In this document: positions 2,538 to 20,382 of the stretch, one piece after another
Numbering within the stretch: position 1 is the first letter of the stretch
Layout of the letters: each line of letters opens with the position of its first letter
Origin: a virus
DNA length: 30,141 bases
Virus record (IMG/VR): IMGVR_UViG_3300044846_003024
Location: 1 to 30,141 of that record
Strand: one strand, 5' to 3'
The notes under the pieces: generated by a model
What the model saw: only the letters and a program-made list of their open reading frames with translations
Database searches by the model: none
Told to the model about the DNA's origin: nothing
Program-made: the position numbers and the translations under genes

Positions 2538-2963
2538 ATGGCACGTTACGCAAACACTGGAGAATATAACTTCAAATATCCTTTGAGAAGGCGAGTCGCC
2601 AACACTCTCAAGAAAGTCATCAAGGATGAGGCACTCATCGACACTGGCACCTTATATGATTCTGTGCGTATCAACGCCAAGGTGACCACAGAGGGCAATC
2701 TCCGCATTCAGATTCTTGCTGCCTATTATTTTGGCTACCTCAACAATGGCACGGCAACCATCGCTCCATTCGATTTGGTGCAGAAATTCAACGTAGCACT
2801 TGAGATGAATGGATTGATTGCTGAAATGTATGGAATGTATGTGGCTGACTTGGCGCAGAAGTTCCCTATCCTTGAGCTCGGCAATCTATTGCGTAAAAAA
2901 CCAAAGGTCATCTATGACTTCGAGCCGTTATTCGGTGAATTCAACTACTCACTGGACTACTAA
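2538..2963 (+). CDS. Putative HK97-gp10-like tail-completion/connector protein
   Basis: 141 residues. The stretch LIDTGTLYDSVRINA near residue 35 matches the LIDTGxLxxSI-type signature common in HK97-gp10-like proteins, which sit at the head-tail junction and are needed for tail joining. The rest (AAYYFGYLNNGTATIAPFDL) has the expected strand/loop character. The gene follows the putative tail terminator by 14 bases, and that gap holds most of box B of a repeated promoter-like element. Its stop TAA (2961-2963) overlaps the stop of the convergent minus-strand gene, with no terminator between them. The family call is by pattern, so moderate. Confidence 0.5.
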   Translation: MARYANTGEYNFKYPLRRRVANTLKKVIKDEALIDTGTLYDSVRINAKVTTEGNLRIQILAAYYFGYLNNGTATIAPFDLVQKFNVALEMNGLIAEMYGMYVADLAQKFPILELGNLLRKKPKVIYDFEPLFGEFNYSLDY

Positions 2964-3697
2964 ATCTCAAGCTCTTTTCTCATCGCCAAGAAATTAAACA
3001 CAAGCACGAGCTTCATGTTGATGACTTGGTCGTATTTGGTGAGGTCACCGTTGCACATCGACCAGATAAGCTGCTCCCAGCCCCACTTCTGAGATGATTT
3101 CTCACGCTCCGCTTCTTTCTTTTCTTCAGGGTCAGTGATGTCATCGATGTCATCCACCACTTGCTCGGTCATTAGATTCTTGTGGCTGGTGATGAAGTTA
3201 TCTCTGAACTTGATATACTCGGTCAGCACACCATACATCTTGGTGATTGGTTGGTCGAGGAAGTAATGCACCCGGCTTGAGGTCTTGAAATCAGTTGACT
3301 CCCATTTTGCGACAACTGAATCCTCCACAAGTGATGGGATGCGATACAGCAGAGCGCAGATGTTTGGCAGATACTGGATGTAGTCGCTGGTGAAGTAGTA
3401 CTCCAGGTCGATGAACTCACCGAGAGTGAGGTCAGTCATTGGCTTGAGATAGAACTTGCCAATCCTATCGGTATATAATTTGCTCGGCTCGGTGTAGAGC
3501 CACTGAAGGTCCTTGAATATCTCGGCTACCTCTGCGATGTCGAGGTCATCGAAGTCATCTGGTACGGCATCTGTGAGCGCACAGAGGATATCGATGTTGT
3601 GGTTGAATGCACCATCCTCTGCTTTGAGTTGGCGCAGCTCAATGAACTGCTCAAGACTGACTTGATTCCACCCCTTGGGCAGCGTTGGCTTGGGCAT
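2960..3697 (-). CDS. Tail assembly chaperone-like protein B (245 aa)
   Basis: Read leftwards from ATG 3697, this gives 245 residues (MPKPTLPKGW...). The same frame is open back to 3853, but that part overlaps gene A and reads as shadow sequence. The protein carries two similar modules, VSLEQFIELRQL near the start and LTLGEFIDLEYY further on, with acidic helices between, and a charged C-terminal stretch EEKKEAEREKSSQKW. Gene A has the matching LTIEQFEKISQI module, so A and B look like paralogues. The first codons overlap gene A by 47 bases in the +1 frame. Such pairs near the tape measure are typical of G/GT-type tail assembly chaperones; that role is inferred. Being on the minus strand is exceptional here. 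Confidence 0.55.
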   Translation of the reverse strand: MPKPTLPKGWNQVSLEQFIELRQLKAEDGAFNHNIDILCALTDAVPDDFDDLDIAEVAEIFKDLQWLYTEPSKLYTDRIGKFYLKPMTDLTLGEFIDLEYYFTSDYIQYLPNICALLYRIPSLVEDSVVAKWESTDFKTSSRVHYFLDQPITKMYGVLTEYIKFRDNFITSHKNLMTEQVVDDIDDITDPEEKKEAEREKSSQKWGWEQLIWSMCNGDLTKYDQVINMKLVLVFNFLAMRKELEI

Positions 3698-4199
3698 ATT
3701 CAGCAATCTTCTCGGTGACAAATACAATGTAAGGAACGCAGAGCTCTGCTTTCTGTGTGCGGAATAATTTTGCTTTGTGCTTGAGGTGAGCATCGGTGAA
3801 GTGCTCGGTGTTGGATAGGTCAGTTCGTTTGAACATGATCGCCAGGATATCACTGATGTAGTGATTCGGCTTGGTGTTCACAATCTTCTCGATGAGCTTG
3901 GTCTCCTTCACTGATAGCTTGAGCTGTGCCTCATAGGTGTAGCCATCCAACTCAATGGTTGTCTGCGCTTCATTCGGTGTGTATGAGTCCAGGTTGAATT
4001 GCTGCACCAGGGCGATGAACTCGCTGAATGGGTAGTCATCCCACATCTCTTCCTTGATGCCAAGATATTTGAACATCTCAACATACTTTTCGATGTTGTC
4101 GAAGTCTTGGTTGTTTAGGATTTGGCTGATTTTTTCGAACTGCTCAATCGTGAGCTCGCTCATTTTGTTAGGGATTTCCTGGTCAAATATCTGTATCAT
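3651..4199 (-). CDS. Tail assembly chaperone-like protein A (182 aa)
   Basis: 182 residues from ATG 4199 to TGA 3651. The N-terminus (MSELTIEQFEKISQIL at 13-28) shares a module with gene B. The body is acidic and helical, without membrane segments or a signal. Position beside the tape-measure and tail-completion genes, plus an out-of-frame overlapping partner, suggest a G-type tail assembly chaperone. The overlap contains codons CAA GGG GTG at 3677-3669, where a +1 slip on GGGG would enter gene B's frame and give a fusion of about 412 residues. A TAnnTTTG box (4223 to 4216, minus strand) lies 16 bases before the ATG. Genes A and B are the only minus-strand genes seen. Confidence 0.55.
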   Translation of the reverse strand: MIQIFDQEIPNKMSELTIEQFEKISQILNNQDFDNIEKYVEMFKYLGIKEEMWDDYPFSEFIALVQQFNLDSYTPNEAQTTIELDGYTYEAQLKLSVKETKLIEKIVNTKPNHYISDILAIMFKRTDLSNTEHFTDAHLKHKAKLFRTQKAELCVPYIVFVTEKIAEYAQANAAQGVESSQS

Positions 4200-13172: not shown

Positions 13173-13465
13173 TATCACCAGAAATCTATGACTTTGAGTT
13201 CTACAATCCTGGGGATGTGAACTATGTGCTGCTCACCGTTATGATGAGAGATGAAGAAACGCACGAGCACATTGCTGAATACGAACTCAAATTTGGAGAA
13301 TATTACGATGATTATAAAACAACAAAAAAAGAATACAATGAAAAACTCACTATCCGAGACACTAAAGAGTGCGATGCGTACCTCGAAAAAATGCATGAAG
13401 AATGCCTCTTCGAATATGGATACATCGAATGTATCAATGAGAATGAACTTGGTTGGTTCATTTAA
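13169..13465 (+). CDS. Acidic hypothetical early protein
   Basis: 98 residues, rich in Asp/Glu/Tyr (EYELKFGEYYDDYK, CDAYLEKMHEECLFEYGYIEC). No membrane span, signal or recognised motif. The strong acidity could suit a DNA-mimic or protein-binding role, but that is only a composition-based thought. It is coupled to the neighbours by ATGA-type overlap at the start and a 29-base overlap with the following small frame. Confidence 0.6.
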   Translation: MISPEIYDFEFYNPGDVNYVLLTVMMRDEETHEHIAEYELKFGEYYDDYKTTKKEYNEKLTIRDTKECDAYLEKMHEECLFEYGYIECINENELGWFI

Positions 13466-13550
13466 CAAGTACCAGGTCGACCGATTTTGGACATCATTCA
13501 ATCACGATCTATACAACAGAATTTGTGAAATCAAAATGACAGAGATATGA
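13437..13550 (+). CDS. Very small hypothetical protein (37 aa)
   Basis: 37 residues (MRMNLVGSFNKYQVDRFW...). The frame lies between two coupled genes: it starts inside the preceding one and its TGA overlaps the ATG at 13547. ATG 13443 (35 residues) is an alternative start. Without this frame an 81-base hole would remain in an otherwise gapless operon. No function is visible. Confidence 0.45.
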   Translation: MRMNLVGSFNKYQVDRFWTSFNHDLYNRICEIKMTEI

Positions 13551-13693
13551 GATTCAAACTAACCTACCACATCGGGCTCGCAGTCGTGCAAGAATGGATA
13601 TTCACCAGCAAATCGCTGGCATACTGGAAAAAAATGGACCTGATAGAGACGGGTCGCTATAATGATGGCAAATTCAAAGTGACACCGCTATGA
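13547..13693 (+). CDS. Very small basic hypothetical protein (48 aa)
   Basis: 48 residues (MRFKLTYHIGLAVVQEWIFTSKSLAYWKKMD...), basic, with an amphipathic or weakly hydrophobic N-terminal half. It is linked by 4-base overlaps to the genes on both sides (13547-13550 and 13690-13693), the main support that it is translated. No family recognised. Confidence 0.5.
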   Translation: MRFKLTYHIGLAVVQEWIFTSKSLAYWKKMDLIETGRYNDGKFKVTPL

Positions 13694-13931: not shown

Positions 13932-14342
13932 ATGAACAAAACAATGCAAGAGATTCTCAATGAAGTGAATGAAGAAATCAAGAAAAATGACCTTTACTTC
14001 ATTCCTGGTGCCGATAACCGTGCACGTCATAAGGTATACCAGCGATTCTATTTATTCTCATTCCTTCGCACTCATCGACTAACGATGGAGGAGATAGCCA
14101 AGATATTCGGAATGGACCATTCAACTGTTGTGTATGGGTTGAAACAAGCAGGTGTAATGAAGAGAGACCGTCTATTCCTTCGCATCACTGATGACCTTCG
14201 TCAGAAATTCGAACAATACACAGCCATGGACTATGTGGTTGACCGGAATATTGTGCTTGATGTGCTCCAGTGTAGCTCATTTTGGGAGATGCGAAAGCTC
14301 CAGGAAGATATCAAAAAAGGCTTGTACGGTGTGACGATGTGA
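13932..14342 (+). CDS. DnaA domain IV-like DNA-binding protein, putative replication initiator
   Basis: 136 residues from ATG 13932. An in-frame ATG at 13908 falls inside the previous gene and is less likely. Residues about 28-75 match the DnaA C-terminal DNA-binding domain: a basic patch ADNRARHKVYQRFYLF, then LTMEEIAKIFGMDHSTVVYGL (50-70), where GMDHSTVVYG corresponds to the DnaA signature that contacts the DnaA box. There is no ATPase domain. Directly downstream is a gap with TTTATCGTCACG repeats and then the primase-helicase gene. I infer that this protein binds those repeats to start replication or regulate the primase. Two inverted copies of the repeat core overlap its 3' end (14331-14344). 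Confidence 0.75.
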   Translation: MNKTMQEILNEVNEEIKKNDLYFIPGADNRARHKVYQRFYLFSFLRTHRLTMEEIAKIFGMDHSTVVYGLKQAGVMKRDRLFLRITDDLRQKFEQYTAMDYVVDRNIVLDVLQCSSFWEMRKLQEDIKKGLYGVTM

Positions 14343-14413
14343 CGGATGCTCTTTTATACCGATTTCGACTCACTCTGATGGGAACACAAGAGCCAAATTT
14401 TTCTGAGAGCGTC

Positions 14414-14520
14414 ATCGTCACGGAAAAAAGTTAAGTCGCACAATATCAGAATTTTAACACTTTTTATTTGCAAATTTATCGTCACGGAGCGTCACGAAAG
14501 ACCCGTTTATCGTCACGAAA
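14414..14520. repeat. CGTCACG iterons, candidate origin or operator
   Basis: The core CGTCACG occurs four times in the same direction at 14416, 14480, 14490 and 14511, two of them within TTTATCGTCACG. Inverted partial copies lie at 14331-14344. Between the first and second copies the DNA is A/T-rich (14425-14478) and contains the palindrome ATTTGCAAAT (14466-14475). The copies fill the 211-base gap between a DnaA-domain-like gene and the primase-helicase gene. The last copy ends 3 bases before promoter E2, so autoregulation is also possible. Confidence 0.6.
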
Positions 14521-14533
14521 TGCGTATATTTAC
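14521..14533 (+). promoter_or_regulatory. Putative early promoter E2
   Basis: TGCGTATATTTAC, identical to E3 at 18096, lies 33 bases before ATG 14554. AAAACAA is at 14541-14547, 13 bases before the ATG, as in the other early leaders. No convincing -33 TTTG is visible at the usual distance. An iteron ends just upstream. Confidence 0.55.
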
Positions 14534-14553
14534 ACCCCACAAAACAACATTTT

Positions 14554-16953
14554 ATGAAAGTTTCCATATTTAAATCACTATTTAACATCAAAGAAACGCC
14601 TTTTGAATTGTCCATTCATGAGGTATACAACCGCATCAGACTCGGCAATCCCGAGCTCATTAAAAAGGTGGCAACAATACGATCACTTGAGAAGGCTGAC
14701 CCCGAGCATGACCGACTCAAGTCGTCACTGAATGCCATCATGTTCAATGGTACCTTCACCGAGCGAAATGACAGCAGCTTGGTTGAGCATTCTGGTCTTT
14801 GCATCCTGGACTTCGACCAATATCCAACAAAGAAACTAATGATGGAGGAACGGAAGCGGCTGATTGCTGACCCTCATGTGATGATGGTGTTCACTTCGCC
14901 ATCTGGCAATGGCTTGAAAGCTGTCATCAGAATCCCAAAGTCGGACAAGGTTGAGCACAAGCGCAGATTCACTGCATTCGGCAAGTACTTCCAGAGTGAA
15001 TATTTCGACAACAAGAACAGCAACGTCAGCAGAGTGTGCTTCGAATCCTATGACCCTGACATCTACTTCAATGAGTTCTGCCAAGTCTTTGAAGGCATCG
15101 AGCAAGACCAGGGATTCAGCTACACCGAGCGCACTCCCATTTGCATCCTATCCGATGAGGACAAAATCATCAGCCTCATTGAGCGATTCGACCATGGATG
15201 TCAATTCGAGGAGGGCAGCCGCAATGAGTTCGTGTTTAAATTGGCAGCTGTGCTCTGCGAGTATGGCATCGGAAAGGATACAGCAGAACAGTACATCTGG
15301 ACCAGGTATGCTCAAGGCTCCAGCTTCAGCGAGCAAGAGATGGTGACAACCATTCGCTCGGCTTACAAGAAAGCATCATTTGGCATCAAATACTTTGAGG
15401 ACAAGGATACCTTTCAAAGGGTGCGTCAGAAGCTCAAGAGCGGCATCGCTGACGATGATATCAAGAAGCAGCTGAACGTCAGAGAGGATGTCATTGAGGA
15501 CATTAAAAAAGAGATTCAGACTGGCGATGATATCTTCTGGTCAGTCAATGAGAAGGGTGGCATCACGATTCAGCCATCAAACTATGCTGAATTCTTGGTC
15601 AAGAACGGATTCAACAAGTACTATCCTGAGAACGCTGAGAAGCCAACCTTTGTGAGAGTCAAGGAGAACAAGGTCAAGATATCATCAGCGGAGCAAATCA
15701 AGGACTTTGTGCTCAACTATCTCCAAAGCAAGGGTGAGATGGATGTCTGGAACTACTGCTCCAGGAATGCATTCCTATTCAATGAGAACTTCATCAATAT
15801 GATTGACAGCATCAACATACTGATGCTCCAGGATAGCAAGGATGCGTCTTATATCCCATTCAAGAATGGTGTGACCAAGATATCCAAGAACAAAGTGGAG
15901 CTCAAGAGCTACATCGATGTGGATGGATACATTTGGGAGAATCAAATCATAGAGCGAGATTTCACTCTGCTGGATGACTGCACCAATGACTTTCAAGATT
16001 TCGTCAGCAAGGTCTCAGCAGATGACAGCGGCAGAGTGGATGCACTTGAGACAACACTCGGCTACTTGATGCACACCTTCAAAGATAAAACTGACCAGAA
16101 AGCAATCATATTCAATGACCAAGAAATCGATGATAACCCAAATGGTGGGTCAGGCAAGTCACTGATGTTGGCTGCACTCGGCAATCTGCGCAGAGTGGTC
16201 AAGATAGATGGCAAGAGCTTCAATCCATCCAAGTCTGATTTCGTTTATCAGCGAGTCAACCTGGATACGCAGATTCTGGCATTCGATGATGTGCGCAAAG
16301 CATTCGACTTCGAGCAGCTCTTCAGCCTCATCACCGAGGGAATCACCGTAAACCGAAAGAACAAGGATGAGATATTCATTCCATTCAACCGCTCGCCAAA
16401 GATTGTCATTACAACCAACTATGTTATCAGTGGTGCCGGTTCTTCTCATGATCGCAGAAGGCATGAGCTGGAGTTCTATCAATACTTTCATAGCAAGCGC
16501 AGCCCACTCGATGAGTATGGTCGCCTATTATTCGACTCCTGGGGTGATGAGGATTGGTTGAAGTTTGACAACTACATGGTCAAGAACCTTCAGAAGTACC
16601 TGACAAATGGATTGATGAAAGCCATCAGCATCAACGCAGATGCCAAGCGACTCATCCAGTCAACGTGCAAGGACTTCTTTGATTGGGTGGAGGAAGGCAA
16701 CCTCGCTCTCGATGTATACCACTACAACGGCACCAAGATTCAAGAATTCACATCAGAATTCACCTCATTCAAAGAGCTCGAGCCACGCAGATTCCTCAAA
16801 TGGGTGCAATCGTATGCTGATTATAAAGGCTACAACGTCACCAAAGGGCGCAATCACAACGGCAGATACTTCCTTCTCGAGTCAGGAACTCCCAAACCGA
16901 CTGCAGAATCTGATGATATTTGGGATGAACTTAACGAAAAAGCGAAGGGATGA
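14554..16953 (+). CDS. Primase-helicase (BT4734/VirE-N type primase with SF3 helicase)
   Basis: 799 residues, the main replication protein. The N-terminal part (about 1-180) resembles the BT4734-like/VirE-N primase region: LDFDQY (85-90) and FTSPSGNGLKAVIRI (113-127). A PriCT-like helical part follows (about 205-275, GSRNEFVFKLAAVLCEYG). The C-terminal SF3/D5-type helicase has Walker A GGSGKS (531-536), Walker B ILAFDD (574-579) and sensor-1 PKIVITTN (615-622). It would prime and unwind DNA at the phage origin; no phage DNA polymerase was seen, so the host enzyme is presumably recruited. It is preceded by iterons and promoter E2, and its stop overlaps the next ATG by 4 bases. Confidence 0.88.
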   Translation: MKVSIFKSLFNIKETPFELSIHEVYNRIRLGNPELIKKVATIRSLEKADPEHDRLKSSLNAIMFNGTFTERNDSSLVEHSGLCILDFDQYPTKKLMMEERKRLIADPHVMMVFTSPSGNGLKAVIRIPKSDKVEHKRRFTAFGKYFQSEYFDNKNSNVSRVCFESYDPDIYFNEFCQVFEGIEQDQGFSYTERTPICILSDEDKIISLIERFDHGCQFEEGSRNEFVFKLAAVLCEYGIGKDTAEQYIWTRYAQGSSFSEQEMVTTIRSAYKKASFGIKYFEDKDTFQRVRQKLKSGIADDDIKKQLNVREDVIEDIKKEIQTGDDIFWSVNEKGGITIQPSNYAEFLVKNGFNKYYPENAEKPTFVRVKENKVKISSAEQIKDFVLNYLQSKGEMDVWNYCSRNAFLFNENFINMIDSINILMLQDSKDASYIPFKNGVTKISKNKVELKSYIDVDGYIWENQIIERDFTLLDDCTNDFQDFVSKVSADDSGRVDALETTLGYLMHTFKDKTDQKAIIFNDQEIDDNPNGGSGKSLMLAALGNLRRVVKIDGKSFNPSKSDFVYQRVNLDTQILAFDDVRKAFDFEQLFSLITEGITVNRKNKDEIFIPFNRSPKIVITTNYVISGAGSSHDRRRHELEFYQYFHSKRSPLDEYGRLLFDSWGDEDWLKFDNYMVKNLQKYLTNGLMKAISINADAKRLIQSTCKDFFDWVEEGNLALDVYHYNGTKIQEFTSEFTSFKELEPRRFLKWVQSYADYKGYNVTKGRNHNGRYFLLESGTPKPTAESDDIWDELNEKAKG

Positions 16954-17549
16954 GTTTAGTCAATATAGAATATGCTTTTGATGAGAATTGCAATCCTTTA
17001 CACATTACTGATGTAGACAAAGAAATCAATAAAGAATTTTATTTATATCAAGATAAATCAGTTAGATTGATACCAAGACAAGGAGAGGTAAATCAATGGC
17101 ATTTTGCAAAACATCCTAAAGATTTTGATAGAATAAATGAAAGCCCAGAGCATCGTAATGAAAAAATTAAAATAATTAGAGATGGTTTTATTGTTTTTGA
17201 TAATTATAAAATAATGATTAAAAATGCCAAAGAAGAACAAATTCTTGAAAATTCACGATATAGGGCAGATATTAAATGTCAGTTATTATGTGGGAAAGAA
17301 TGTATAATTGAAGTCATTAAAACATCAGATATAAGTGAAAAAAAACAAGAATTCATTGAACATCAAAATATCTTGACATTTAAAATATATATAAATGAAG
17401 GAAATACAATCGATAGAAGAATTGAAATATTTGGAAATTCAGAAATTCAAAGCATTAGAAATAAAATTTCAAGAATTACAAAGCAAATCAATTCACTCAT
17501 ATACGCAAATGGAAATTTTAAAAGAATCACTGACAAAGTCAGACTTTGA
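16950..17549 (+). CDS. CoiA-like nuclease-domain protein, AT-rich insert
   Basis: 199 residues resembling the competence protein CoiA/restriction-endonuclease-like family: WHFAKH (50-55), ESPEHRNEK (64-72), then SRYRADIK (102-109) followed by IIEVIKTSDIS (119-129). That is a D-x(n)-E-x-x PD-(D/E)XK-like core with Asp106 and Glu121, and Lys124 near the usual position. Base composition is strikingly AT-rich: 7 of 60 bases are G/C in 17161-17220, against 29 of 60 in 16861-16920 of the preceding gene. It seems a recent acquisition, but is neatly coupled to the primase stop by 4 bases. Activity may be DNA processing, superinfection exclusion or counter-defence; the sequence does not say which. Confidence 0.6.
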   Translation: MSLVNIEYAFDENCNPLHITDVDKEINKEFYLYQDKSVRLIPRQGEVNQWHFAKHPKDFDRINESPEHRNEKIKIIRDGFIVFDNYKIMIKNAKEEQILENSRYRADIKCQLLCGKECIIEVIKTSDISEKKQEFIEHQNILTFKIYINEGNTIDRRIEIFGNSEIQSIRNKISRITKQINSLIYANGNFKRITDKVRL

Positions 17550-17742
17550 TTCGTGCATACATTTTGCGTATAGGACTTTAAATCATAACGGTTATGATTT
17601 TACTGATAGACATTTTAAACATTTAATGAATAATTATGACACGACAACACCGACAACTCCTCAAGGACCTCCAGCTGAAGCACAAGATGGAGAAATATCC
17701 AACCATGCCACCGCAAAACATTGCACTGGACCAATGGAATGA
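17509..17742 (+). CDS. Possible small protein at the end of the AT-rich insert (77 aa)
   Basis: Reading from ATG 17509 gives 77 residues. The first 44 (MEILKESLTKSDFDSC...) use AT-rich codons and look protein-like. The rest runs through the start of the next gene in another frame and is Pro/Thr/Ala-rich, like read-through rather than a designed domain. It may be a truncated AT-rich gene whose 3' end was lost at the insertion boundary near 17635. No function recognised. Confidence 0.35.
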   Translation: MEILKESLTKSDFDSCIHFAYRTLNHNGYDFTDRHFKHLMNNYDTTTPTTPQGPPAEAQDGEISNHATAKHCTGPME

Positions 17743-18094
17743 CAACTCAGCCAATGCACTGACCAAATCAATCATCGCATTCCTCCAGTTTAATGGATGC
17801 CAAGCGGAGCGAATCAACACGATGGGAGTCTATCGAAAGAAATACCGCACAGATGGAGTCGCCATCGGTGGGCAGTGGACCAAGGGAACTGGCACACCAG
17901 GCTCGGCAGATATCTCCGCCACGATCAAGGGGAGGTCTGTCAAGATTGAGGTCAAGTATGGCAAGGATAGACAGTCTGATGCACAGAAAGCATACCAGAA
18001 AGCCATCGAGGAAGCTGGTGGTGTGTACATTATTGCACGAGATTTTGAAGGATTTTTGCAATTTTATGAGCAGTTTTGCGAATCAATCAAATAA
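17636..18094 (+). CDS. VRR-NUC-type PD-(D/E)XK nuclease
   Basis: 152 residues. The core GTPGSADISATIKGRSVKIEVK (86-107) gives Asp92, Glu105 and Lys107, and Gln117 lies in the following helix (SDAQKAYQKAIEEAGG), the standard VRR-NUC order. The end VYIIARDFEGFLQF also fits. Phage proteins of this class act as structure-specific nucleases, for example on branched recombination or replication intermediates; a resolvase role is inferred. The start at 17636 is the first ATG. The later ATG at 17690 is possible, since the domain itself begins near residue 33. G+C content returns to the phage norm here after the AT-rich insert. Confidence 0.75.
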   Translation: MTRQHRQLLKDLQLKHKMEKYPTMPPQNIALDQWNDNSANALTKSIIAFLQFNGCQAERINTMGVYRKKYRTDGVAIGGQWTKGTGTPGSADISATIKGRSVKIEVKYGKDRQSDAQKAYQKAIEEAGGVYIIARDFEGFLQFYEQFCESIK

Positions 18095-18127: not shown

Positions 18128-18646
18128 ATGACTACAAAAAAAGCAGAGCCAATGAACATTTGGCAAAAATTACACGCTGCCAAGCAGCAAATCGGAAAGG
18201 TTGCAAAGAATGCAACGAATCCTCATTTCAAAAAGAGCTATGCTGACATCAATGCGCTGCTCACAACGGTGGAGCCAATACTCCACGAGCATGGACTGCT
18301 TCTCTTGCAGCCAGTGGTTGGCAATGATGTGGTGACTCGTATCATCGACATCGATTCTGGTGAGGTCATTGAGTCATTCATGAGCCTTCCAGTCATCACA
18401 GACCCACAAAAGGTGCTCGCTGCCGTCACTTACTTCAGAAGAGGTACATTGCAGTCACTGCTCTCACTTCAAGCTGTGGACGATGATGGAAACACAGCAG
18501 CTCAAGGTGCAGCATCCAAGCCTGCAATCGATGACAACCGATTCAAGAAAGCACTCGAATCAATCGAAGCTGGCAAGTATACAGCAGAGCAATTGAAGCT
18601 CAACTACTCGCTCAATGAAGCTCAACTCAAAATGCTTGCACTATGA
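18128..18646 (+). CDS. ERF-family single-strand annealing protein
   Basis: 172 residues. NPHFKKSYADINALLTTVEPILHEHGLLLLQPV (about 31-63) is the recognisable ERF signature, followed by VITDPQKVLAAVTYFRRGTLQSLLSL, the second conserved block. A flexible Ala/Gly linker leads to a C-terminal helical part. ERF proteins anneal complementary single strands and promote recombination-dependent replication or repair. It is coupled (4-base overlap) to a YqaJ-like exonuclease and followed by an SSB-like gene, the usual recombination trio. It has its own promoter-like element E3. Confidence 0.85.
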   Translation: MTTKKAEPMNIWQKLHAAKQQIGKVAKNATNPHFKKSYADINALLTTVEPILHEHGLLLLQPVVGNDVVTRIIDIDSGEVIESFMSLPVITDPQKVLAAVTYFRRGTLQSLLSLQAVDDDGNTAAQGAASKPAIDDNRFKKALESIEAGKYTAEQLKLNYSLNEAQLKMLAL

Positions 18647-19260
18647 AATGGCATCCATCGCAAATCGGTAAGCTGATGACCAATGGCAGAGCCAAGGACA
18701 GCATGGGAGAGACAGCCAAGAGCTATATCAAGGAGTGTGCGAAGGAGGATTTTTACGGATACACCACAGAACTCAGCACAAAAGAGATAATGAAGGGTAG
18801 AGAGCAAGAGCAAGATTCAATCGATTTATTGAATTCGGTTAGGTTCACGAACTACGTCAAGAATGAAAAGACCATCGAGAATGATTATCTCATCGGCACA
18901 GCTGATATCGTCATCGAGCAGAGAATTATTGATATCAAAACACCTTGGTCTCTTAAAACATTCCCAGCACTTGTGGAAGATGCAGTCAACCCACTCTATG
19001 AATGGCAGCTCAGAGCATACATGATGCTTTATGACAAGCCATGTGCCGAGTTGATATACTGCATGGTCACCACCTGGGATGAGTTCCTCAATGAATATGA
19101 GAACCTCCAGCTGCACAGAGTGGACCATATCGACCCAGAGAAGCGCATCACAGCTCTCTGGTATGACAGAGATGAGGACATCGAGGCTAAGATGGTTGCT
19201 CGCCTAAAAGAAGCATCCGATCTATATCATGAATATTACGAACAATTAAATAACAAATAA
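18643..19260 (+). CDS. YqaJ/lambda-exonuclease-like recombination nuclease
   Basis: 205 residues. PD-(D/E)XK motifs: Glu54 in KGREQEQ, LIGTADIVIE with Asp88, IIDIKT with Asp97 and Lys99, and YEWQLRAYMML with Gln122. The order and spacing match phage recombination exonucleases, which resect double-strand ends for an annealing protein. The ERF gene immediately upstream supplies that partner. The C-terminal region is charged and helical. The SSB-like gene begins 1 base after its stop. Confidence 0.85.
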   Translation: MKWHPSQIGKLMTNGRAKDSMGETAKSYIKECAKEDFYGYTTELSTKEIMKGREQEQDSIDLLNSVRFTNYVKNEKTIENDYLIGTADIVIEQRIIDIKTPWSLKTFPALVEDAVNPLYEWQLRAYMMLYDKPCAELIYCMVTTWDEFLNEYENLQLHRVDHIDPEKRITALWYDRDEDIEAKMVARLKEASDLYHEYYEQLNNK

Positions 19261-19261
19261 A

Positions 19262-19585
19262 ATGGAAGAGCTAAAAGCAAAAGGCACCATTCACCACCTT
19301 GGTGAAGCCAAACAAGTGAGTGACAAGATGAACATCAGAGAGTTCGTGCTCTCAATCGGTGACAAGTATCCGCAGCTGGTACAATTCCAAGCAGTCAATG
19401 AGCGAGTGAAGTTCCTGGAGACAGCAAGAGTCGGTCAAGAATGTGAGGTTAAGTTCGACCTTCGAGGTCGTGAGTACAACGGCAGATACTATGTCAGCCT
19501 CAATGCATGGGATATCCGCATCGAAACAGCAGCAGCACCATCAAAACCAATCACAGATGAAATCGATGACGATTTACCTTTCTGA
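19262..19585 (+). CDS. DUF3127-like single-stranded DNA-binding protein
   Basis: 107 residues. The OB-fold-like pattern AKGTIHHLGEAKQV...REFVLSIGDKYPQLVQFQAVN...CEVKFDLRGREYNGRYYVSLNAWDI matches the DUF3127 family, common in Bacteroidetes and their phages. The acidic C-terminus DEIDDDLPF mimics the SSB tail that recruits partner proteins. It would coat single strands made by the exonuclease and replication fork. The last 20 bases overlap the next gene start. Confidence 0.8.
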   Translation: MEELKAKGTIHHLGEAKQVSDKMNIREFVLSIGDKYPQLVQFQAVNERVKFLETARVGQECEVKFDLRGREYNGRYYVSLNAWDIRIETAAAPSKPITDEIDDDLPF

Positions 19586-19766: not shown

Positions 19767-19951
19767 GATATTTCATCGGATATGTCGGCACCAGGAATGA
19801 TGGACTTGATAATATCATAAAGCGATTGGAGGACCTATTGAATGAACTCAAAGGTTGCTCTTATTGCATAGTTTTAACCCTATCGGAGGAAGTTCACATC
19901 TCCGAAGTAACACCAGAAGAATTCTATGACCAAACCGCAGCACTTAACTGA
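19763..19951 (+). CDS. Small hypothetical protein
   Basis: 62 residues (MRYFIGYVGTRNDGLDNIIKRLEDLLNELKGC...). A short strand, a helix and strand CSYCIVLTLSEEVHISEV give a mixed alpha/beta look. No motif recognised. It is coupled to the preceding gene by a 4-base overlap and overlaps the next by 26 bases. Confidence 0.5.
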   Translation: MRYFIGYVGTRNDGLDNIIKRLEDLLNELKGCSYCIVLTLSEEVHISEVTPEEFYDQTAALN

Positions 19952-20147
19952 CCCAATCGTTCTCAAGGTACTGGCGAAGTATTATGAGCGCAGCCAGCTC
20001 GGCATCAAGAAATATGGGCGCACTTTAGATCGTGACGACCTAAACCTCACCGATTGGCTGAATCATCTCCAGGAGGAACTGATGGATGCCACGCTGTACA
20101 TTGAGAAGCTAAAGAGTGAAGTCAAATCAAACAAGGATAAGGGGTAA
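19926..20147 (+). CDS. MazG-like small phage protein
   Basis: 73 residues. YYERSQLGIKKYGRTLDRDDLNLTDWLNHLQEELMDATLYIEKL is a pattern often seen in small phage proteins related to MazG-type nucleotide pyrophosphohydrolases, with Glu/Asp in EELMD as potential metal ligands. The full four-helix MazG core is not present, so the protein may act as a dimer or be non-enzymatic. It could affect nucleotide pools during infection. Confidence in the function is low to moderate. Confidence 0.55.
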   Translation: MTKPQHLTDPIVLKVLAKYYERSQLGIKKYGRTLDRDDLNLTDWLNHLQEELMDATLYIEKLKSEVKSNKDKG

Positions 20148-20199
20148 AAATTGCCACATATCTTAAAACGAAATGTAAAACCTTTAAACAACAAGAACA

Positions 20200-20382
20200 A
20201 TGAAAACAGCAGTAGAATACTTATCGTATGTGTATGCTCTTCAAGGTGCCATATATCAAGATGACATTGATAAAGCTATTGAAATGGAGAAGGAGCAGAT
20301 AACTGATGCTTGGGATAGCGCTTATACCGCAGAAGGATTTTTTAATGCAGAACAATACTACAACGAAACCTTTAAACCATAA
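20200..20382 (+). CDS. Small acidic hypothetical protein
   Basis: 60 residues (MKTAVEYLSYVYALQGAIYQDDIDKAIEMEKEQITDAW...). Acidic and helical, ending AEQYYNETFKP. Proteins with the AxEMEKxQIxDA and AExYYNETF pattern are frequent in Bacteroidetes phages, but no role is known to me. It follows a 52-base gap with the sequence GTAAAACCTTTA, recalling the early leader repeat, and a TAAACAA leader 15 bases before the ATG. Confidence 0.65.
   Translation: MKTAVEYLSYVYALQGAIYQDDIDKAIEMEKEQITDAWDSAYTAEGFFNAEQYYNETFKP

Follow-up and report, generated by a model that had tools for sequence, protein, structure and literature searches.

The window analysed here is an IMG/VR virus record taken whole, 30,141 bases long, that encodes a terminase, a portal protein and a replication and recombination operon. 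In this operon a primase/helicase-like gene (BT4734-like N, PriCT_1; 14554–16953) is followed by an AT-rich block (16950–17635), a small VRR-NUC-like endonuclease gene with weak matches to phage endonuclease and Holliday junction resolvase families (17636–18094), and genes for an ERF annealing protein, an exonuclease and SSB (18128–19585), all on the plus strand. The genome is otherwise plus-strand too, save for positions 2960–4199, where two mutually similar ORFs (LEQFIEL... and IEQFEKI...) lie on the minus strand. Relatives of the primase among named records were mostly from Flavobacterium, Nonlabens, Polaribacter and Bacteroides phages, so the host of this phage group is likely a member of the Bacteroidota.

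At 25.4% GC, the block is the lowest-GC 686-nt stretch of the window (lowest elsewhere, 36%), compared with 46% in the primase gene, 48% in the downstream gene and 44.6% over the window. A previous sequence-only reading had pointed to 7 G/C among the 60 bases at 17161–17220 against about half in the preceding gene, and both our recount and the primase value agree. It had also described the block as one nuclease gene running from the primase stop, with a 4-base overlap, to the start of the next gene. The borders were placed correctly: the left joint is an ATGA in which the primase stop overlaps the cassette start (16950–16953), and the right joint is the ATGA that starts the downstream nuclease gene (17636–17639). 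The nuclease gene does not fill the block, though, as ORF1 (16950–17549, plus strand, 199 aa) ends 86 nt before 17636. Those last 86 nt are covered by ORF2, a +1-frame ORF on the same strand (MKEIQSIEELKYLEIQKF..., 17395–17635) that overlaps ORF1 by 155 nt and has no stop inside the block; as read it extends to 17742, entering the next gene in a different frame, with its own end missing. The 3' end (17490–17640) gave a structured-RNA signal (z -2.3) and contains a 21-base perfect palindrome, AAATCATAAC-G-GTTATGATTT, at 17580–17600, which is possibly a binding site or a chance occurrence in AT-rich DNA. We rejected a structured RNA as the main feature here, since both signal and palindrome are inside ORF2 and hence minor.

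Relatives retrieved through the primase (n = 80, 81–99% identity) revealed how variable this position is. The primase–endonuclease junction was empty in 37 of the 77 with both flanks readable, the primase stop being joined directly to the next start as ATGA, and these include two relatives (L003 and L004) in which both flanking proteins are 99% identical to those of the window. Other inserts of 65–655 nt and 26–37% GC occupied the remaining 40 junctions, mostly beginning with ATG at the same base, and many of their stops overlap the next ATG. They encode N6/N4-methyltransferases, an HNH protein and several orphan families of 54–104 aa, with two orphans sometimes in tandem (L030, L053, L054; L020, L023). 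The window cassette itself was found in one other contig of the clade, L002, where it matches at 685 of 686 bases although flank identity is no more than 92 and 91%. Mismatches cease 14 bases before the cassette and restart 21 bases after it, so that the common block spans 16936–17656 with a single mismatch and the sequence beyond is about 92% identical; this near-identity within diverged flanks is direct evidence of its exchange as a unit. Similarly, L016 and L059 share an HNH insert at 100% identity (flank identity 94.7 and 82.1%), and the insert common to L058 and L069 is 97.0% identical with flanks at 79%. The cargo-cassette character proposed in the sequence-only reading is thus strongly supported by clean empty joints, even in near-identical relatives, by unrelated cassettes in other relatives and by the same block in diverged flanks: a hotspot lies between the primase and the small endonuclease gene, and the block is one of the exchangeable cassettes that occupy it. 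Among the junctions compared, this joint had the most length variants (23 in 78), and others vary too. Early-operon junctions at window positions 13462–13690, 14342–14554, 19257–19262 and 19948–20200 were also length-variable among relatives, by up to about 1.9 kb.

Several of the other cassettes at this joint have features of their own. The methyltransferase cassettes of L014, L021, L035 and L072 have near-identical ends and differing central parts, as if the target-recognition part alone had been swapped; a search for methyltransferases elsewhere in 11 phage records found none. The HNH cassette (L016, L017, L024, L059, L066) is 99.7–100% identical between contigs whose flanks differ by up to 18%, making it a candidate homing-type element. 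A 66–70 nt insert in L061, L062 and L063 lacks a long ORF and carries TATACGC repeats, and similar TATACGC/GCGTATA arms are also found at window positions 17497–17575.

ORF1 resembles the CoiA family (CoiA_nuc PF06054, CoiA_N PF25164; COG4469) in its small N-terminal domain with HFA, its E..EH...K helix and its PD-(D/E)XK-type core, which is predicted at about residues 66–147. The motifs named in the sequence-only reading are all present (HFA 51–53, E64..E67-H68...K72, RAD 105–107 and E121-V-I-K124), although HFA is not invariant; the residues invariant across 16 aligned family members are E64, E67, H68, K72, R105, D107, E121 and K124. Structure prediction, proposed there as a check, did return such a core: AlphaFold2 (mean pLDDT 78.6) placed a helix at 66–78, strands at 86–98, 105–112 and 117–123, a helix at 130–138 and a strand at 142–147, a helix-strand-strand-strand-helix-strand order of the PD-(D/E)XK type. 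This predicted fold, with D107, E121 and K124 invariant, is that of the PD-(D/E)XK superfamily core. PD-(D/E)XK nucleases dominated the structural match lists. Among the best viral-library entries was a phage protein annotated as Competence protein, and VRR-NUC and Holliday junction resolvase entries were matched there too; the PDB matches were individually weak. A PDB sequence search returned coiled coils only, and our search for a solved CoiA structure found none, which has no bearing on the fold.

By sequence, ORF1 had no match among Pfam, PHROG, NCBIfam and PADLOC models, neither the window protein nor its full-length relatives reached the curated cut-off in Pfam, and a search for CoiA_nuc in eight phage records was negative. 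When the window protein was searched directly against named phages, plasmids and bacterial genome contigs, no relatives emerged. Sampling of Bacteroidota genomes yielded two weak but recognisable CoiA-like proteins, both passing the Pfam CoiA_N cut-off, the remaining matches being mostly unrelated and weak. A small alignment that included these two led to one virus relative, contig L135, and the window protein together with L135 led to 28 contigs, one of which was L002 again. Profile comparison (hhalign) with bacterial CoiA-like proteins gave a probability of 88.9 and an E-value of 2.4e-6 over both the N-terminal and nuclease domains. That CoiA is a PD-(D/E)XK nuclease, with PD-EXQ as its active site, is a published prediction (PMC1189080). 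The ORF1 active site, RAD...E-V-I-K, differs from PD-ExQ/ExK in that Ile stands two and Lys three residues after the catalytic Glu, with Lys at +3 and not +2. The CxxC zinc-ribbon-like pair before HFAH is also missing (YLYQDKSVRL vs YxCxxCxxEL), C43 and C46 being nearly invariant in the bacterial set. Fold and remote homology thus support the CoiA-like reading, but since ORF1 stays below the Pfam cut-off, lacks the CxxC pair and departs from the ExK/ExQ spacing, we regard its family as a distant sister family and not a member of CoiA. Its setting differs as well: CoiA belongs to the competence regulon, whereas ORF1 is located in a phage replication operon and has an overlapping second gene.

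That second gene, overlooked in the sequence-only reading along with the short-form status of the window copy, is conserved. In addition to L002, 27 further contigs carry a related nuclease gene (35–50% identity, 225–395 codons) with a +1-frame ORF of 89–198 codons, open in all 27, and on every contig that includes both sides the gene is flanked by the primase and the endonuclease gene (two contigs are cut on the primase side). In full-length copies (about 330–395 aa), the nuclease stop and the next start share exactly four bases, and ORF2 lies wholly inside the nuclease gene, with 158–198 codons and up to about 590 nt of overlap. The ORF2 ATG is homologous across copies, within the sequence for LTFKIYI-D/N-D/E just past the last core strand; by itself it is weak evidence, because Asp-Glu after IYI yields an ATG automatically when Asp is GAT. 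Synonymous-codon resampling of eleven full-length representatives, with nuclease protein and codon usage kept, gave an expectation of 8–13 +1-frame stops where none is seen (P at most 5e-5 each), and the reverse test on the same eleven gave P at most 0.0012. Outside the overlap, most substitutions between close pairs are at codon position 3; within it, they are elevated both at position 1, the wobble position of ORF2, and at position 3, that of the nuclease, and are least frequent at position 2 (Fisher p = 9e-9 for the shift, from seven disjoint pairs; the overlap departs from uniform at p = 0.015). ORF2 residues M1, E4, I5, S7 and E10 are invariant over 16 sequences of 22–79% identity, and in L155 the nuclease frame ends early and ORF2 remains open. 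Taken together, the resampling, the substitution pattern, the conserved residues and the openness of ORF2 show statistically that the C-terminal half of the full-length CoiA-like gene is dual-coding, with both frames under selection.

The ORF2 product is predicted to form long helices (mean pLDDT 88, pTM 0.38). Neither the full-length forms nor ORF2 had a match in 50,697 named phages or, in a search without a positive control, in 395 Bacteroidota genomes; one ORF2 match beside a portal gene (E 0.02) was not credible by context. Judging from these comparisons, we consider ORF2 a new family without an annotated phage homologue. We also considered a single frameshifted gene, with the +1 frame continuing where ORF1 looks weaker, and rejected it, as frame-0 homology to L135 reaches about residue 183 and conservation of the two frames holds in every relative.

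The window copy is a short form of this family. Its nuclease core is complete and it retains the beginning of ORF2, but the conserved C-terminus EWFG..P.GV.K...ILY.IS is missing. Its ORF2 is weak by itself (P = 0.017 in the overlap, about 0.05 over the following 28 open codons), so the dual-coding case for this copy rests on its relatives. The long form is usual at the same joint in another, more AT-rich phage clade, where the gene is nearly always present; one relative there, L169, whose primase is 91% identical to that of L144, carries another short insert in its place. With the conserved C-terminus and the ORF2 stop both absent, a working nuclease/ORF2 pair may not be made from the window copy. 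L135, L146, L148 and L155 are shortened likewise. The L146 copy reads into a second cassette that resembles one from the window clade, suggesting that copies become shortened in the course of cassette exchange.

These observations bear on whether the window copy is a decaying remnant of cassette exchange with the ends of both frames cut off, a reading that we find somewhat unlikely and that does not exclude the main explanation. A remnant would account for 199 aa against 330–395 aa, for the absent C-terminus and ORF2 stop and for the other shortened copies, but the nuclease core is complete with every invariant residue in place, frame 0 is still coding-like and a second phage carries the block at 99.9% identity. 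Programmed frameshifting into the +1 frame, which would make a single nuclease/coiled-coil fusion, in two versions, rather than two separate proteins, seems very improbable. ORF2 does begin right at the end of the nuclease core, and both C-termini are predicted as, or resemble, coiled coils. Set against this, the ATG is always kept, and a +1-frame stop stands directly before it in the window and many relatives, so any frameshift site would need to follow the ATG.

Two further explanations concern why the cassette is there; the sequence-only reading had named counter-defence, host DNA processing and exclusion of competitors as possible roles. The nuclease could be a selfish, homing-like enzyme that cuts the empty joint of a co-infecting phage so that repair copies the cassette in and the gene spreads itself; precise presence or absence at one joint, the near-identical block with short shared tracts in diverged flanks and the like behaviour of the HNH cassette would all follow. 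We hold it to be decidedly unlikely, since nuclease-free cassettes also move at this joint and the gene is almost fixed in the AT-rich clade, co-evolving with a nested second gene that a purely selfish nuclease would not need. That same near-fixation suggests a steadier role than counter-defence or exclusion, by a nuclease with a coiled-coil partner directed at host defence or at a competing phage or plasmid, and the defence library gave no match, though it covers defence families and not anti-defence. The joint does resemble variable anti-defence loci in how readily it turns over and in the centre-swapped methyltransferases and small orphans that it also holds, and we rate this role as unlikely. 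The methyltransferase and HNH cassettes are compatible with either homing-like spread or counter-defence.

We lean slightly towards an explanation that combines a hotspot cassette, a CoiA-like PD-(D/E)XK nuclease, a nested ORF2 coiled-coil partner and a shortened window copy. The operon transcript would give the nuclease by translation coupled to the primase stop through ATGA, and ORF2 by internal initiation. The nuclease may then trim or resolve DNA intermediates from the primase, exonuclease, ERF and SSB proteins, with the helical rod of ORF2 acting as its partner or regulator, and recombination within very short conserved flanks would carry cassettes from one co-infecting phage to another. 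Our best guess for the function of the pair is a recombination nuclease plus partner; what favours a role in recombination or repair is purely the gene neighbourhood (primase, small endonuclease, ERF, exonuclease and SSB). More tentatively, it is possible that this is a new phage pair on one DNA stretch, a CoiA-related nuclease and a nested +1 coiled-coil controller moving through the hotspot; held together by overprinting, such a pair would always move as a unit.

Phage morons and freestanding homing-endonuclease genes are extra genes of deviating composition, cleanly inserted between operon genes. The cassette is like them in composition and clean insertion, and an HNH cassette occurs at the same joint, but the cassettes here are coupled by ATGA overlaps, many lack a nuclease and two can be stacked. 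Tailed phages seldom carry long same-strand overlaps, and gene-calling programs discard them. Like overprinted same-strand +1 genes of viruses (PMC8903798, PMC7017920), the nested gene has its own ATG and both frames are under selection; unlike the typical +1 overlap in virus reference genomes (median 14 nt, IQR 8–26; PMC8903798), it reaches about 590 nt in full-length relatives. Within incomplete literature coverage, we came across no description of a CoiA-like gene with another gene nested inside it. The result is a long same-strand overlap that has persisted through large divergence and that silent mutations could put to the test. With its empty, singly filled and stacked forms, the joint provides a natural series that bears on how phages swap operon genes with translation intact, and on what CoiA-type nucleases do outside competence.
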